A DNA stretch of 64,000 nucleotides, taken from NCBI GenBank assembly GCA_017506865.1, contig JAFCMP010000257.1, positions 124,001 to 188,000 on the forward strand. Direction: 5' to 3'. The translations under genes and the position numbers were made by a program. Under the pieces are notes generated by a model, which did not search any database, was not told where the DNA came from, and saw only the letters and a list, made by a program, of their open reading frames with translations. This document shows positions 1 through 11,574 of the stretch, one piece after another; position 1 is the stretch's first letter; each line of letters opens with the position of its first letter. Source of the DNA: Tribonema minus. Lineage: Eukaryota > Sar > Xanthophyceae > Tribonematales > Tribonemataceae.

Positions 1-3000
1 TGCAAAGCAGCACACACACACGATAACTCAAACTCACCTGCAGTTGCGTCCAATCGACTCCACCTTGGAGTACCCCGTGACCCTGCAGAACTCTGCGTTC
101 ACAAACACCATGGGCGCGCCCGGAACAGTCATCTCGCTGACCACGATGCACGCGGGAAACCCTTCCGCAGCCCTCACAAACTTGCCCAACCAATCATCCG
201 CATCCTCACTGCCGCGCCCGCTCCACGCCTTGCTGCTGGCTGCCAACGCCCCGTCGATACTGCGGCGGTGCGCGCCACTGCGCTGCGCGCTGCTGCCGCC
301 GCCGCCGCTGCCGCGCGCACTGCCGCCGCTGTTGCTGCCCGAGAACAGCGCGCCGCCGATGCTGGCGCGCGTTTTTGAGGCTATGCGGCCAAAGCCGGAG
401 GTGCTGCGTGGGGAGGGTCCGAAGAATGCGCTGCCGCCGCCGTGGCTGAGCCGTGATGCGGCGGCGCTGGTGGTGGAGCTGGCCGTGTTGCTGCGGGGGC
501 CGCCCATGGCAGCGAGCAGCTGGTCCGCCTGGGGGAGTGATATTGTGAGACATAAGATAAGGGTGAGGGTTAGGTTAAAATTAGAGGTTGGGCTAGGGTT
601 ACAGGGTAGGGTTGGCGTAAAGCAGGGTCTGGTGTCTGAGCTGAAGAGGGCGTTGGAAAGCTGGCGGCAGGGAACTTATCAATATAGCATAGCTGGGGAG
701 AGAGTGATTGCAAATGCCAAGAGCTGATGCACCCGATAACTTGGGGCTGGGGTTAGCGTTCTGCAGTGTGAGAGTTGGTGGAGTGGGGTTAGGGTTAGGG
801 TTAGCAGACAGTTACATTGTAGCTGGTGCTCCTAGAAAGGGAATCGTGCTTCTTCTGGTAGAGTCAACCCTGCGAACTTGAAGCTTTGCGCTGCCTCTGC
901 CTCTGATTGGACTTCAATCTGACTGACCATGGAGTGGGAAAACAAGCGTTGGGTTAGGTTTTGAGATGGGCTAAGAGCAACCTTTGACCCTGGACCTAAC
1001 TTTAACAGGTTGCTTTGATAAAAAGCATCAATCAGCCTTAGCTTTCACCACATGATTGCTTCCCTGGGCAGCATCACTGGTGCATTACGCAGTCTGTTCA
1101 TCGCGATGTCTGCACAAGTTGCTGGCGACTCTGGGGTAGCTTTCGTAAAAGGTGAGAGCACTCAGAGTCGGCTGACCTAGGGTTAGGCTTAGGGTTAGGG
1201 TTTAAGGAGGGTTTCCTGAGTTAAACGCATTCTATAAACAGCTGCCAGCCATTTTCTTCTCCTCAAGGATCAGCGAGAGTCGGAAAACTGGCAGGTTCAG
1301 CATAAATCAGCATCATCCCTACTACAAATGGCGCCATTGAAACCTGCAGTTATGCACACTACTAATATCGACCGTGGGATTTGGCTGACCCTTCGGGTTG
1401 AGCGGACCCTGCACTACCTGCATTTGTGAACATCAGGGACACCTGCGCTTGTTAACATCAGGGATATCATCCTAGATATGATACCATATCATACCTACAT
1501 ACCTATCATCATATCACACCTACATAACCTATCATTAGGGTTGGCACATCCGTATTCCGTAGATACACCGTATATCCGTATATACGCGTATATATACCCG
1601 TATCTCAATATTTGGCCTGCGAAATCCGTATAAATCCGTATTTTGGGGATATCAGCCTTAATGCACGTTGCGATGGCACTACTGGTCATCCTGTCTCTGC
1701 TTGAGCTAACGAGGCTGCGTACTGCAGCGGACACCTCCTCCAGAGAGGTTCCGACCTCGGCTCATTAGTTTCTTCTCTCTTGAAGTTGCGCTGGGTTGGA
1801 CACGCTGTGTGACACACGCTCTACGCAACTGGAGATCATTGCAATACTGCGCCTCGCAGCATGGCGGCTGGTGCTACCAGTGCAGTAGCAGCCGCAGGGC
1901 TGGGGCTGCGCCGGGCAGCTAACGCGCATCAGCTAACAGAAGGAAGGCGGAGGGATGTGTGTGCTGTATGTTAGCTACTGTGGTGTGGCGGCGACGATAT
2001 GACACGAGTTGCATAGCTAGCGTCACCAGCCACGTCCCGAACAGTAGTGGCTTGAGCGTTTGCGAGTCCACTGTGGCGATTCAACTAACATCACGCGGGC
2101 ACGCTTGCTGATGATGGCATCGACCTCACTGTTTCTCATTGCCTCACTACATACATATTTTAGCTACCTAGTTGCTGGAAAAGAAAACAAACGCATGGGT
2201 GGCGTATTTGAGAGCTCAAACCATACTTTAGTTGTGAGGCTCATGTCAGATTGGGCATGTGCGAGTCTTGTGTGGGGGGGCCTCCAAGGGGGGGGGGGGG
2301 GGGGGGGGGGATTGGGCATGTGCCATTCAACACGTCAACAGCATCATGATTTCAACGTCTTTCTGCCTGTGTGGTCATCTTATATTGCATCCAAATCACC
2401 CTTGATTTTTCAACTTGAAGTTACGTCGGGAAGTGCCAGTTCCATCGATTTGGGTTTGTCAGATACGGATTTGATATACGGATATACGGAAAATACGCTA
2501 AAATACGTATTTTTACCCGTATATGAAATCTCAATATACGGTTTTTGCCAACCCTACCTATCATCATACCATACCTACATACCCAGCTTGGGATACTGTA
2601 TGTACCTTGGGGTTGGGCGGGCCCTGAACCGCATGCAGTCGGCCGGGCAGCAGGTGCAGCAGAGAGTCCAGCTGCCTGAGGCGCTTCTTGAGATGACTGT
2701 CGGCCACAATCTCAAACTGCACGCCAATGACGTATCGATAGATGCCTGCGAGCGAAGTATGAGAGGATTGAGAAGACAAAAGACAGGTATTAATGAGTTG
2801 CAGCCCCCTGGAGGGTATCAAAGCCAACACATGACTGTTGCTAGAGCTAGGGTGGTAGACACGAAGCTGGTCAATACTGTTTGCCCATCACACCGCCGCA
2901 CATGCCTGCGAGTGACGCTTGAGGTTCAGTCATCAAGATAACGGCTCGGGGCAGGGTGAGTGTTAGATACATCCCTAGGTGGTGTTACAAGCTGCATCGG

Positions 3001-6000
3001 CATGGCTGGTGGGAATTGGGGGCAAATGGCTGCACTCGAGATGCCCATGTCAGTGCAACCTAGATCAGCTGCTGGACACATGTGAATTCAATTGGCACAG
3101 CACTGCAAAAAAGAATCCCGCTAACAAATGTACAACCCTAAGCCGCATGCAGTCGCGGCACTGCCACAACTCAGGGATCAGAAATAGTATGTATTAGCTT
3201 CAAGTTTTCAAGTTCATTCAAAGTTGAAGTTCACAGCGTCCTCACCTGCTCCATCAAACACGGGCCGCATGGAGAGCAGGTTGGTGAACTTGTCGCCGTT
3301 CTTGCGGTAGTTGGTGATGCGCACATGGCAGTCCTGACCACGGCTCAGGCGGCTGCGTATCATGTCAATGGCCTCCGGCTCCGTCTCTGGACCCTGCAGA
3401 AATCTGTGATAGCAGACGGTAGGAGCAAATGTAAGGGTGGGTGGTGGCAAGATCTCAAGCCAGAAAGGGCAAGAGCAATGAGCTGGCAAAATGCAGCAAT
3501 GCAGCACTGTAACAAAGCATCAAGAGGGAGTGCCCCAGTTGAGGCTGACGGTACTGAAGCTACTGTAGCACTGTCACACGCTTTATCCCTCTTTACTGGT
3601 CAGGCAGGGTTAGTAGCGCTGCATTGAATGCCTTGCATACTCCACAGGATTGCTGTGTCTGCTGTCTGACATGCATGCGCGATTGCGTACATACATTCAT
3701 TATAAATATGTTCAACTTCACAGTCAACAAGTGCGACCTTAACGAGAGCCACATAGCTGTCTGCTGGGTCTGTCACATTGGATACATCACACACAAGTCA
3801 GCAACTTCAACCCTGAGACTCACTTGCAGTTGCGCCCCTCCGCCTCCCCCTTGGCGTACCCCGTGACCTTGCAGAAGGCCTGATTCACGTACACCATTGG
3901 CGCACCGGGCTGCGTCACATACCAAAGATGAGGAGCAGCAGCACGCACGGAAGGTTAGCATTAGGATTAGGAACACAACCTTGAAAGCCACATTGTTGAA
4001 ATAAGCGCTGTTTTGTAGCAGTCGGGTTGCACTTGAAGTTGTGCACTTGACGTTGCAGTTTGTTCAAGATCTGTTGAGATCAGTTCGAGAGCTTTTGCAT
4101 GGCTGACTCAGCAATCCTGAGCTAGAATGCTCAGGCTTGTGCGTTCTTCCTTTCCTACACACTAGCACGTGTGTGTGTGACTTGTTGCTGCAATGGCTCA
4201 AGCTTACATTCCTCTGCACGGTGATTTGCGCGATGTCAATATTGCTACCACATGAATATAGAATTTGTACTTTTTATTAATTCTCGCTCAGGGCGCGAAA
4301 AAGCCCAGATGATTGGCATTTGTACCCCTGGACCAAATCATGTACCTGCGTCATGTCCGTCACCACCAGACACGCAGGAAAACTCTCCGCCGCCTCCGAG
4401 AAATTTCTCAGCCACTCCTGCGGATCTGCGCCCCCCTTCCCGCTCCACGCCTCCCCCGTGGCCGCCGCAGCTAGTGCGCTGTCCATCGCCGCCAGCGCCG
4501 CCGCCGCCGCCGCAGCGCTGCCGCCGCCGCCAGACAACGCGTTTGTGTTGCCGCCGCCGCCGTAGCTGCTGCGCGTGCCGCTGTGGCTGTTGAAGTTGGC
4601 GCCACGCACGCCGCCGCCGCCGCCGCCTCCGTAGCTCTTCCTGCTGCCGCCGCCGCCGCCGCCGCCGCCGGTGGCGCTGCTGCTGCTGCCGTGGCGGCTC
4701 TCGCGCTCCGGCGAGCGGAAGTACGTGCGCTGCGGCCGCCGCTGCTGCTGCTGCGCTGCCGCTGCCGCCGCCTGCTGCAGTCCCTGCGCGCCGCTGCTGC
4801 TGCCGCCCTGCGCCGCTGCTGCCGTCGGCAGCGCGGCGCCGCCTGTCGGTGCGGTGTCTACTTGAACTTGCAGCGGAATCAGCTGGTTGAACTTGAGGAT
4901 GACGCCGGTGCTGGTGACGCTCAGGCGCTGAGCCTCGCTGCCGCTTGGCAGCTGCATGCGCAGCTCCAGCAGCAGCGGGAAGAGCGGGCTCGCACAGAAG
5001 TGCGCGTACGAGTCCGTCTCTAGCATCTTGAGGACATCGCCTAGGGCATCATCGAAGATGTCTGCGGCGATGTGCGTGGAGGCCATGTCGGCGAGGATCT
5101 GGTGGCGCATGGCCGCGCTGATGTTGACCTGTGTGCGCGCGCGCGCGAGGTGGGTATGTGGGTTTATATGTTACATGTAACGACGGGGGTACGCAAATAC
5201 ATGAAAACAAATCAAAAGATCATGGAGCTCTAGGTGACAAGGTGTGCTTAGCTGTCAAATTGAATGCTTCCCACCAATGACCGTGGTCGCCGCTGCTGCA
5301 GCAATTGGTCACGAGTCAAACAGTACCACCATATCCACAGTAGTCAAAGAAGAGTTCTGTGTGCATGTTATATGTACTCTGGTCATACACGTGTATGTAC
5401 GTGTGTGATTAAAGTTGGCAGGCACATGAGGCTGGCGTGTGACGGTGAACTTGTGTGAAGTGACTGCTATGTGAAGAGAGGTGAAGTGATTGCTGCCGCA
5501 GGCACCGCGACACCAAAGACACGAAGCCATGTATGTAGAGACCGACGCAAGCTCGTGAAGCTGCACTGCTGTCTAGCGACATAGTGCACCTCCCCACCTG
5601 TTGTTGTCCACAAAAAAGGCGACGAGGTATGTATCTCCTGAATATCGCCAATTACACTTGTTTTACTTGCATTCCCTGAAACAGCACTTGAAGTTCACCA
5701 AACAGCACTTGAAGTTCATCACGGTACCTGATCCGGCGACCCCTCCCGTATGAACCGGTCCACCAGCGCGCTCGCCGCATCCGTAATCGCACTCTGCCGC
5801 CCCGCGCAGCCGCGGCGGTACATGAACCTCAACTTGAAGTTCATCACGTGCTCCCAGAACACCAGGTTCTCCACGCAGTGCGTCACCTCCAGGTGCTGCC
5901 GGAAGACGGCGCGCTGCGCGCTGTCCCTGAGCACCGCCTCAAAAGACGCGCCGCGCGCATCCATGGACGCAGCGTCCGGCACAGCAAACTTGCGCAGCTC

Positions 6001-8350
6001 CGCCACTGCCGCGCCGCTGCTGCTGCTGTTGTGTGCGCCGCTGCCTGCGACCACCGCCCAGACGGGCGCGCACACGCAGCCCCCTGCCTCCGCAGCAGCG
6101 CCGCTGCCGCCGCCGCTGCTGCTGCTGCCGCCGGGCTTCTCGCCGTCCGCGCCGCCCTGCGCCGGCGGCAGCGCTGCCTTGGCGGAGTGCTGCGCGCGCG
6201 ACAGCGACACCCTGTTGAGCACGCCGCTGACCCAGCCCGACTGCTGGCTGTTGCTGAGCGCTGCGTCCATGGTGTCGGTGACGCTGGCCGCGTGCTGTTG
6301 CTGCTGCGCCGCCGCCGCCGCGTCGTTCTCGGCGGCGTTGGCGACGACGGCGCCGCCGATGGCAGCGAGCCACGTGGCCTTGGCAACCGCATTGCGTGCC
6401 GTGAACACGAACGAGGCGTCCGCAGACAGCAGCATGAATGACGCAGCTGCGCCGTCCGCCGGTGCAAGCGCTGCTGCGGAGTCCACGACGTAGCAGCTGC
6501 GCAGGTCGATGCCCTGGTTCATGGCCACCAGCCCGCTGCTGCTGCTGCTGCCTGATGGGTGCTTGCGGCCGAGCAACAGCGCATCCTTGAAGAGGAGTAC
6601 GCGGTGCGGCAGCGGTCCGTCGCGCGTGATGACGCTCAGCGTGCCCTCCATGAGCAGCGGCCGCGCGGCAACAGCCGCCGCGACTGTGCATCATGGGGGG
6701 GGGAGAGGGGCAGGCATGGGCGTGGTGAGGCTGCAGGCGTTGCATACATGCTGTATTGCTCTTCGTGTGTGCCAGATGGGTTGTGTATATGTGTGATTAG
6801 AGTCTGTCGCACTGACTCCAGCACGCTGCATAGTGCACAAACTCTCCATGCTGCCATCTCTCCGGCACAGCAGCACCAGGCCTGGCCTCTCAGCACGACA
6901 ACCACAGTCTCACCCGACCTACACCAACTGTGCGTCTTAACCTAACCCTAGCCCTGCGAGGCTCACCGCTGGCGTCCCCAAAGTCGTAGCGCATGGCCAG
7001 CGCACCCCCCAGGTCCGGAGCCCCCCACTGGTGCATGTCCGCGTAAATGCGCCTCGCGATGCGCGCCAACCGCACCAGCGACAGCGCCGCAGGCCCCGGC
7101 TCCAACTTCAACAGGCTGGGCGTCAACGCGTAGCGCAGCACCTGCTGCACGGGCAGCAGCAGGAGGTCGCTGACACGCGTGTCCCCGGGGGTGGGGGAGG
7201 GGGGCGCGAGGGTGGACGCTTGAAGTTCGCACGCGCGCAGGAAGGCGGCGGCGGACTGGCGCGTCTCCAGTATGTGAAGTTGCTCGCGCGCCTCGTCGAA
7301 GGAGTTGAGGTACGTGGCGTGCAGCTCCAGGGAGCCCTTGATCTGAGCGGGCGGGGGGGAGAAGGAAGTGAGGGGGCTAGGGTTGAGTGTTGAGTCTAGG
7401 TGGGAATACTCTGGGTACATGGGATAATGGCTCAGTTGCAGCACTGCTGGTTTGTGTGATTTGGCAAATTAAGCCAGGTTTCAGTAGTGGATGGTCATAT
7501 TGCAGCATGCAATGCAGTTACACAGTGCTGGAAACAGTGCTTGCATTGGCTTCCTGATTGGGGGCGCATGCCCCTTGCACTGTCAAGCAGTTTGAAACGT
7601 TGGTGTCATCATGTCTTTGAGAAAACGGGAGAGAGTGTACTACTAGACACAATGGCCACCTGTGAGTGCAAATGCGGCAGCACTGCGTGCTTACCTACAT
7701 TACCGCTACTCCAACTGCCACGCGTACTTCAGTCGCAGATGGCAGTTTGAAGGCGCACACACCTGAATCTTGAGCTCTCGTGTCGCCGCGTCTCCTCCTT
7801 CCTTCATCATCGCCGATGTGATCCTCTCCAGCAGGTTTGCGTGGTATGCAGCGATGTGCTGCAAATTGCTGGCGATCATCGCAACATCCTCTGGAGACAC
7901 GTCCGCTGCGGGTGCCGAGCGCGACGGGTCATCTGCGACAGCCTCACGCTTGGCCGCTTGCTGGTCTGCCCAGCGCGCCAGCGGCCGTATGAAGCACTGC
8001 AGCAGCATCTGCAGGCCCTGCACGTAGGCAGTCTCGCAGCTGACGGCGTCCAAATCCTCCTGCGCGTTCGTCAGCGTCGACAAAGGCAGACAGTGAGCTG
8101 CAGCAGACGAGTGATGCCATGCGATCAAACGCCAGGCGTTGAAACGATGCGAGTACACAAGGCTCCAGCTACGACGCACCTTGTGATCGCCGTGACAAGT
8201 TCGATAAGCAGGTGCATCGCGCACGGTGTCTAGCGGGGCCGGAGCCTCTGTAAGTCCCTTGTCGCTGCTGCTGTCATGTTCACCCGAAGATACTACGCTG
8301 GTCTCTGCTAAGGTAGCCACATCGTTTTCCGCCATCGCACCCGTGGCCAT
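1..8350 (-). CDS. DH-PH-RGS-LOV-LOV protein: putative light-regulated Rho guanine-nucleotide exchange factor (3' end outside window)
   Basis: Nine exons join in phase: 8350-8180, 8059-7763, 7342-6967, 6683-5728, 5128-4346, 3909-3824, 3403-3246, 2745-2606, 528-38, giving at least 1,152 residues. The start is the first in-frame ATG (MATGAMAEND). Residues about 58-275 form a Dbl-homology domain (ETAYVQGLQMLL; LLLLPVQQVLRYALTPSLL). Residues about 290-390 form a PH domain (LLMEGTLSVITRDG, LLFKDALLLG). Residues about 505-655 form an RGS domain (VENLVFWEHVMNF, REGSPDQVNISAAMR, MLETDSYAHF). LOV1 (about 840-970) has GRNCKFLQGPET with the flavin-adduct cysteine at 889 and ends RYVIGVQFEIV. LOV2 begins in the last exon and reaches GRNC (C1152) at the window edge. 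Both LOV domains are split by a phase-2 intron just after the GRNC cysteine, suggesting internal duplication. From family knowledge, DH-PH exchanges GDP on Rho GTPases, RGS acts on G-alpha, and LOV senses blue light. Light control of the exchange activity is inference. Confidence 0.85.
1536..2556. mobile_element. Non-autonomous hAT-like DNA transposon in a LOV-gene intron
   Basis: The element begins TAGGGTTGGCA and ends TGCCAACCCTA, an inverted terminal match, and is flanked on both sides by the 8-bp direct repeat CCTATCAT (1528-1535 and 2557-2564). Subterminal regions on both sides are rich in CCGTAT/ATACGG words. An 8-bp target duplication with termini of the TAGGG type is characteristic of the hAT superfamily. 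At 1,021 bp with no transposase-like reading frame it must be non-autonomous. It contains a long G tract at about 2289-2310. Confidence 0.8.
4267..4320 (-). mobile_element. LINE 3'-tail remnant (family B) in a LOV-gene intron
   Basis: About 54 bp match the 3' terminus of the LINE copy at 14539-16838 in the same orientation (starting TGTACTTTTTATTAATTCTC on the plus strand). It lies about 26 bp from the 5' splice site at 4346. Only the extreme 3' end is present, as expected of severe 5' truncation during target-primed reverse transcription. Confidence 0.75.

Positions 8351-8680: not shown

Positions 8681-11574
<2,894 letters not shown>

Follow-up and report, generated by a model that had tools for sequence, protein, structure and literature searches.

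Helmchrome, a photoreceptor found in brown algae and further photosynthetic stramenopiles and placed by excerpts of one report in the posterior flagellum (PMC5795050), combines RGS domains with several photoactive-looking LOV domains, and the RGS-RhoGEFs of animals (p115-RhoGEF, LARG, and PDZ-RhoGEF), Entamoeba (EhRGS-RhoGEF, PDB 4gou), and Naegleria (NfRGS-RhoGEF) carry RGS and DH-PH in one polypeptide. Excerpts of a 2012 paper give proteins with RGS and DH-PH from animals and amoebozoans only (PMC3499586), Naegleria being added later (PMC9283941, in excerpt), and excerpts of a study of four diatoms give RhoGEF as the sole effector not detected in every one of them (PMC3727952). Aureochrome, a LOV photoreceptor of the same lineage that, according to part of one report, appears limited to photosynthetic stramenopiles (PMC12558739), is a transcription factor in which bZIP is combined with a single LOV, and the Intersectin-NPH1-Intersectin chimera (PDB 5hzi, 5hzj, and 5hzk) joins LOV to DH-PH but is man-made. 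In the xanthophyte Tribonema minus (GenBank assembly GCA_017506865.1; 158 Mb, 554 contigs), we analysed a 64,000-nucleotide stretch (bases 124001–188000 of contig JAFCMP010000257.1, C257; hereafter the window), in which a gene begins whose predicted product has the architecture DH-PH-RGS-LOV-LOV-LOV-LOV. It shares with helmchrome, its closest photoreceptor relative and one that the initial annotation of the window had overlooked, an RGS and several LOVs of the same type, and with the RGS-RhoGEFs the presence of RGS and DH-PH in one chain, although the latter lack LOVs and the DH catalytic residues are altered in the window protein. No published description of a protein combining the two was found in the open-licence papers searched, in line with the initial annotation, and the architecture is a new one made from known parts. 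We give a probability of roughly 55% to the reading that the product is a signalling photoreceptor acting on Gα, in which DH-PH would be a weak exchanger or a docking module.

Nine minus-strand exons with GT/AG borders and closing phases lie in the window and encode 1152 residues without a stop, as had been claimed. Exon 1 (8180–8350) supplies a start codon, itself without homology support, and a 57-residue N-terminal tail, and the DH domain is divided between exon 2 (7763–8059), aligned to the paralogs, and exon 3 (6967–7342), which contains the CR3 motif LLLLPVQQVLRY and runs up to the DH-PH border. Exon 4 (5728–6683) holds the end of the DH-PH linker, the PH domain (residues 291–391; 6355–6657), a second linker, and the first half of the RGS domain (residues 528–650; 4979–5946; Pfam PF00615), which is split by the intron 5727–5129; exon 5 (4346–5128) continues with the second half of RGS, a mostly low-complexity linker, a helix preceding LOV1, and the LOV1 start. 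LOV1 then extends over exon 6 (3824–3909, its core to GRNC, with the adduct cysteine codon at 3828–3826), exon 7 (3246–3403, from KFLQG through ..FDGAG), and exon 8 (2606–2745, its end IYRYVIGVQFE and the next helix), and exon 9 (38–528) encodes a linker and LOV2 to GRNC, with the adduct cysteine codon at 42–40. Intron 9 begins at 37–1, so that the window alone truncates LOV2 right after its cysteine. Eight further exons (10–17, window coordinates −828 to −7358) lie in the 10 kb of contig to the left of the window (L009, positions 9171–2641); they finish LOV2, supply LOV3 and LOV4, and end with the stop at L009 2641, equal to window coordinate −7358. The whole gene thus has 17 exons, 16 introns all of the GT/AG type, and 5265 coding bases for 1754 residues, with a sole stop at the end. 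The initial annotation was right about a single protein in the order DH-PH, RGS, LOV and fell short in counting two LOVs, of which the full gene has four. It had also named, as evidence that would speak against one protein, a division between PH and RGS or between RGS and LOV; no stop was found at either place, since the PH-RGS join lies inside exon 4 (a single open frame of 318 codons) and the RGS-LOV1 join inside exon 5 (likewise, 261 codons). Of the joins that connect different domain types, three in all, only the one from DH to PH crosses an intron, and it brings together two domains whose neighbourhood is standard for Dbl proteins; the other two require no splicing. Judged from its sequence, this is one natural DH-PH-RGS-LOV gene, larger than the window alone shows.

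The domains, previously recognised by core motifs, were mostly borne out by profile searches of the joined protein with hidden Markov models. Pfam RhoGEF scored 45.4 bits on the 1152-residue piece and 44.6 on the 1754-residue protein (cut-off 27.6), RGS 70.5 and 69.8 (cut-off 23.9), and PAS_9 70.6 on the piece (cut-off 27), with four stretches totalling 240.1 bits on the full protein, whereas PH stayed below its cut-off of 25.1 (14.1 and 13.4) and was recognised by predicted fold. The model of exon 4 has seven strands and a helix, as in a PH domain, and its first Foldseek matches are the DH/PH structures of FARP2, PDZ-RhoGEF, and p115-RhoGEF. Since this model was built from only four sequences and has a mean predicted local distance difference test score of 45.8 (43–80 in ten-residue blocks over residues 1–120), its PH part alone (about residues 6–125) was used, the RGS half being too poor. 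By predicted fold, PH is clear directly behind DH. Scores below threshold for the DH or RGS segments, which the initial annotation had named as further counter-evidence, were not seen.

The structure of the gene is not a product of chance, because a paralog on contig C533 (132364–148849, plus strand) aligns with it over DH-PH-RGS (271 of 608 aligned residues match) in the same domain order. The fitted C533 protein, DH-PH-RGS followed by five LOVs, has 1792 residues before a TGA (Pfam RhoGEF 42.1 and RGS 62.7 bits, five PAS_9 stretches, no PH row), and its gene shares with that of the window the intron positions after RELKIQ and between SPDQ and VNIS in DH-PH-RGS, including the position at which intron 4 splits RGS. 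Two further DH-PH-RGS genes lie on contigs C346 (L037, L038; RhoGEF 83.0, RGS 65.9, and PH 21.0 bits, just under cut-off) and C120 (L039, L040; 131.7, 68.8, and 28.2 bits, PH over cut-off), with no LOV match at E ≤ 0.01 in the 30 kb and 20 kb around them, respectively. Two other RhoGEF loci (L043, L044) showed DH as the sole match in the 10 kb read. Because the genome RhoGEF search scores exons singly, it missed both the window gene and the C533 gene, and there are at least as many RhoGEF loci as it counted. Outside this genome, a query made of two LOV repeats from C533 gave 181 proteins at E ≤ 0.001, and among the best 120 of them, which were examined, one (P0001; 3055 residues, source label lgn) has DH, PH, a window-type RGS, and then a run of ten LOV-like domains, all within a single unbroken frame, as judged by profiles made here. 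No other protein of the 120 matched the home-made DH profile, of which P0001 was itself part; its precomputed Pfam RhoGEF and RGS calls do not depend on that profile. The architecture sought elsewhere by the initial annotation is thus present in P0001 as a second case, with ten LOV-like domains in place of the number it had given; six of the ten have the full cysteine motif.

The RGS domain appears to be the better-preserved output. Of seven Gα-contact positions checked (E87, N88, N128, L159, D163, S164, and R167 in RGS4 numbering), five are kept (Glu, Asn, Asn, Asp, and Ser), and P0001 has Pro at one contact Asn. The domain is 55% identical to that of C533, 43% to C120, 37% to C346, and 27% to P0001. 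The genome search gave 40 match rows for Gα genes (best 208 bits) and 80 rows for the Ras superfamily, of which four loci were read and look Rab-like, not Rho. Excerpts of two studies describe canonical RGS domains within RGS-RhoGEFs that bind active Gα, one in Entamoeba (PMC3499586) and one in Naegleria (PMC9283941), which makes the Gα arm plausible in the window protein. The Gα side of the earlier proposal accordingly stands better than its Rho side.

The LOV array is likewise well preserved. The four LOVs are mutually 65–72% identical over 130 residues and all keep GRNC[RK]FLQG, NYRK.G..F.N, and VIGVQFE (with Q), as do all nine LOVs of the window and C533 genes; the adduct cysteines noted in the initial annotation were confirmed in GRNCKFLQG of LOV1 and in GRNC and RFLQG, across an intron, of LOV2. 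By these motifs, the four LOVs look photoactive. Each LOV takes up three exons whose phases repeat from one LOV to the next: a phase-2 intron between GRNC and the following R or K and then a phase-1 intron recur in all four, and the introns between LOVs are all in phase 0; the recurrence indicates that the row grew by tandem duplication. The intron after GRNC is also present in all five C533 LOVs. A broken copy of a LOV-exon start (FLQEGRQNQMRQTR...) was seen in intron 9, shortly ahead of the true exon 10 (L009 about 9283–9220; window about −716 to −779) and is perhaps a relic of LOV-exon tandem duplication. Of the same kind as helmchrome are RGS-LOV units at 161–174 kb of contig C446 (L034, L035), which have no DH match, and whose two canonical LOVs are 64–74% identical to the window LOVs over 107–111 residues. 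Two divergent LOVs (GRNCHFLVG and GKNCKFITG) alternate there with the canonical pair, in one gene or two. In a LOV tree, the window LOVs fall among photoactive helmchrome LOVs; with 67 rows, several long branches meeting, and unsettled bootstrap values, the order of the DH-PH-RGS-LOV and helmchrome LOV groups is undecided, and the C446 LOVs group loosely with those of Ectocarpus and Discosporangium at 93/90, below the starred threshold (95 and 80). An aureochrome was read on contig C246 (L021; bZIP, then LOV), which marks the host as a photosynthetic stramenopile; identity between its LOV and LOV2 of the window protein is about 40%.

The description of the protein as a blue-light-gated Rho exchange factor, in contrast, became doubtful on inspection of the DH domain. 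Part of one report describes the double Ala mutant of P-Rex1 at E56 and N238 as dead in guanine nucleotide exchange factor activity (PMC3559689), and the equivalents of these residues were mapped by alignment and spacing (182 residues). The window DH has Asp at the position of E56, the catalytic Glu of CR1, and Tyr at that of N238, the catalytic Asn of the last helix; the pair is Asp/Leu in C533, Asp/His in C346, Asp/Asn in P0001, and Glu/Asn in C120. The CR3 motif reads PVQQ in the window gene, PVLQ in C533, PVRR in C346, and PVQR in C120. The window DH is thus altered at its predicted catalytic face and the C120 DH is intact there, and the exchange activity of the former is doubtful because the catalytic Glu and Asn and the CR3 Arg are all replaced. 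With its catalytic pair intact, the C120 product would in its own right count as an RGS-RhoGEF from a lineage other than animals, Entamoeba, and Naegleria.

In the photoreceptor acting on Gα that we favour, blue light would form flavin-cysteine adducts in the LOV array, if the LOVs bind flavin and respond to light as their motifs suggest. The change would be relayed through the helices flanking each LOV and would alter the engagement of active Gα by RGS, as a GTPase-activating protein and/or by docking. PH and DH, the latter probably without most of its exchange activity, might place the protein at a membrane or hold a Rho-family GTPase. Several points weigh against this reading. The change from Glu to Asp is mild, so exchange may persist, and P0001 retains the Asn. 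The LOV-less C346 has the same Asp together with His for Asn, which means that the DH changes do not simply follow LOV fusion. RGS has Met for Leu159 and His for Arg167 of RGS4, and any LOV signal would have to cross a largely low-complexity linker of 185 residues (651–835) to reach it. In addition, the second intron of the LOVs, between FD.. and G.YRYV, matches its window-gene position in just one of the five C533 LOVs, by machine fit, and the length of the intron between LOV1 and LOV2 (2605–529) allows a transcript ending after LOV1.

The alternative that survives best is the light-gated Rho exchange factor of the initial annotation, in which light sensed by the LOVs would control Rho/Rac exchange by DH-PH and RGS would sense and end Gα signalling. 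RhoGEF is above its Pfam cut-off, the PH model most resembles those of DH-PH exchange factors, the second Glu of CR1 and the RY of CR3 are retained, and the similar changes in C346 mean that loss of use is not implied. Furthermore, the DH-PH-RGS order is conserved, with RGS behind PH in each of the five homologs that were aligned; the initial annotation had correctly set this placement apart from the RGS-first order of animal RGS-RhoGEFs. In EhRGS-RhoGEF, too, the RGS match (chain residues 15–129) is N-terminal to DH-PH. The catalytic replacements nevertheless fall on both LOV-bearing paralogs and spare the LOV-less C120, and the best RhoGEF stretch of the window protein spans profile positions 7–146 of 180, compared with 4–180 in C120. 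We consider Rho exchange as the switched output unlikely. Similarly tentative is the broader proposal of a natural light-gated RGS-RhoGEF in which the four LOVs would jointly control Rho-family exchange and Gα signalling, so that blue light links G proteins to the cytoskeleton, in a family whose members differ in their number of LOVs (4, 5, and 10) and which grows by LOV tandem duplication.

It is improbable that the protein is a helmchrome, that is, a flagellar phototaxis receptor to which DH-PH has merely been added at the N-terminus. The LOVs do resemble those of helmchrome in identity and in the tree, and helmchromes are described as RGS-LOV proteins in excerpts of one report (PMC10967245). 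The window RGS, however, is only 18–20% identical to four helmchrome RGS domains and 37–55% to those encoded by C533, C120, and C346, and helmchrome-like units exist separately at C446, where the open frames lack the intron between GRNC and R. A protein from Ectocarpus (P0012), which we take to be helmchrome by architecture and which may correspond to CBJ26132.1 of PMC5795050, lacks DH-PH and consists of four alternating RGS-LOV units with two weak RGS matches among them, in contrast to the one RGS and four successive LOVs of the window protein; its RGS domains belong to another lineage and lack the two Asn kept here. The window protein thus departs from the features by which we delimit helmchrome: alternating RGS and LOV with a helmchrome-type RGS and, as our own criterion, no DH-PH.

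The protein looks chimeric, since its RGS matches the DH-PH-RGS family and its LOVs match the helmchrome type. Presumably, a tandem series of helmchrome-type LOV units became joined to the C-terminal side of a DH-PH protein with RGS. Relatives of that protein without LOVs persist in the genome as C346 and C120. Because the intron after GRNC is found in both LOV-bearing paralogs and is absent from C446, one fusion before the paralogs split fits; P0001 could derive from the same fusion or from another.

Very improbable is a misjoining of two or more genes, in which the intron 2605–529 would mark the boundary between a DH-PH-RGS-LOV1 gene and a distinct multi-LOV gene. This intron is about 2 kb long and repeat-bearing, translation of the unspliced transcript would end 13 codons past exon 8, and an ATG occurs early in exon 9. 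Exon 9 nevertheless joins in phase 0 like both other inter-LOV joins, C533 has five LOVs in the same layout, and P0001 has DH-PH-RGS and its LOV-like domains in one unbroken frame; phase, paralog, and P0001 thus agree on continuity from LOV1 to LOV2. A decaying pseudogene or functionless duplicate, to which the broken LOV-exon copy in intron 9 and the changed DH catalytic positions could point, is equally far from likely given 1754 codons without an internal stop, GT/AG borders in 16 of 16 introns, and photochemical motifs in all four LOVs.

Many other top LOV matches among the 120 proteins were helmchrome-like RGS/LOV repeat proteins, including those from Ectocarpus (P0012), Choristocarpus, Discosporangium, Aureococcus, and a Pavlovales alga, and some had LOVs only. 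Two LOV-repeat proteins, P0018 and P0029, carry precomputed Pfam PF00027 (cyclic-nucleotide binding), and P0018 also carries ankyrin families and PF00520 (ion channel); these are possible light-regulated channel-like proteins. A search with residues 50–700 of the window protein (DH-PH-RGS) found no protein at E ≤ 0.001 among 7999 candidates scored, perhaps because words from the low-complexity linker swamped the candidates. An alignment of DH-PH-RGS as query gave four (P0121–P0124) among 7999 candidates scored. P0121–P0123 are PH-RGS fragments, 40–42% identical to C533, that read on past the exon border of the window gene (SPDQ before V in the window protein, APDQ before V in the fragments), with PH over the Pfam cut-off in P0121 and just under it in P0122. 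P0124 joins RGS to unrelated domains. The LOV profile had no match in P0121–P0124, as far as the fragments themselves extend.

Elsewhere in the window, the 11-mer AACTTCAAGTT gave 35 matches (at most one mismatch, both strands) at 29 places, compared with 0.56 expected; one copy lies in exon 4 (5831–5841), where RGS has five residues absent from P0121–P0123. Enrichment of the 9-mer AACTTCAAG extends to other parts of the genome (18 in 170 kb, compared with 0.7 by base composition), and short runs of the CCCTAA/TTAGGG type, scattered within introns, rank with the most frequent 9-mers when the window and the 170 kb of loci are taken together. A divergent neighbour on the plus strand (8681–9739) has a frame resembling 4-hydroxyphenylpyruvate dioxygenase (Pfam Glyoxalase_5 at 26.3 bits, just below the cut-off of 27), which opens with a signal-peptide-like stretch ending in ASASAW, the type of ending found in secondary-plastid algae. 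An Rfam scan of the window gave no matches.

LOV control of DH-PH has been built by hand in optogenetics, and a natural fusion of a LOV array with DH-PH-RGS appears to have arisen at least once and to have been retained, in T. minus as a pair of paralogs and once more in the database protein P0001. Proteins with RGS and DH-PH are thereby extended to a photosynthetic stramenopile. If RGS or DH is responsive to light, the window protein would provide a soluble, opsin-free route from blue light to G-protein signalling, which would bear on blue-light steering in stramenopile algae and offer a natural multi-LOV part for optogenetics.

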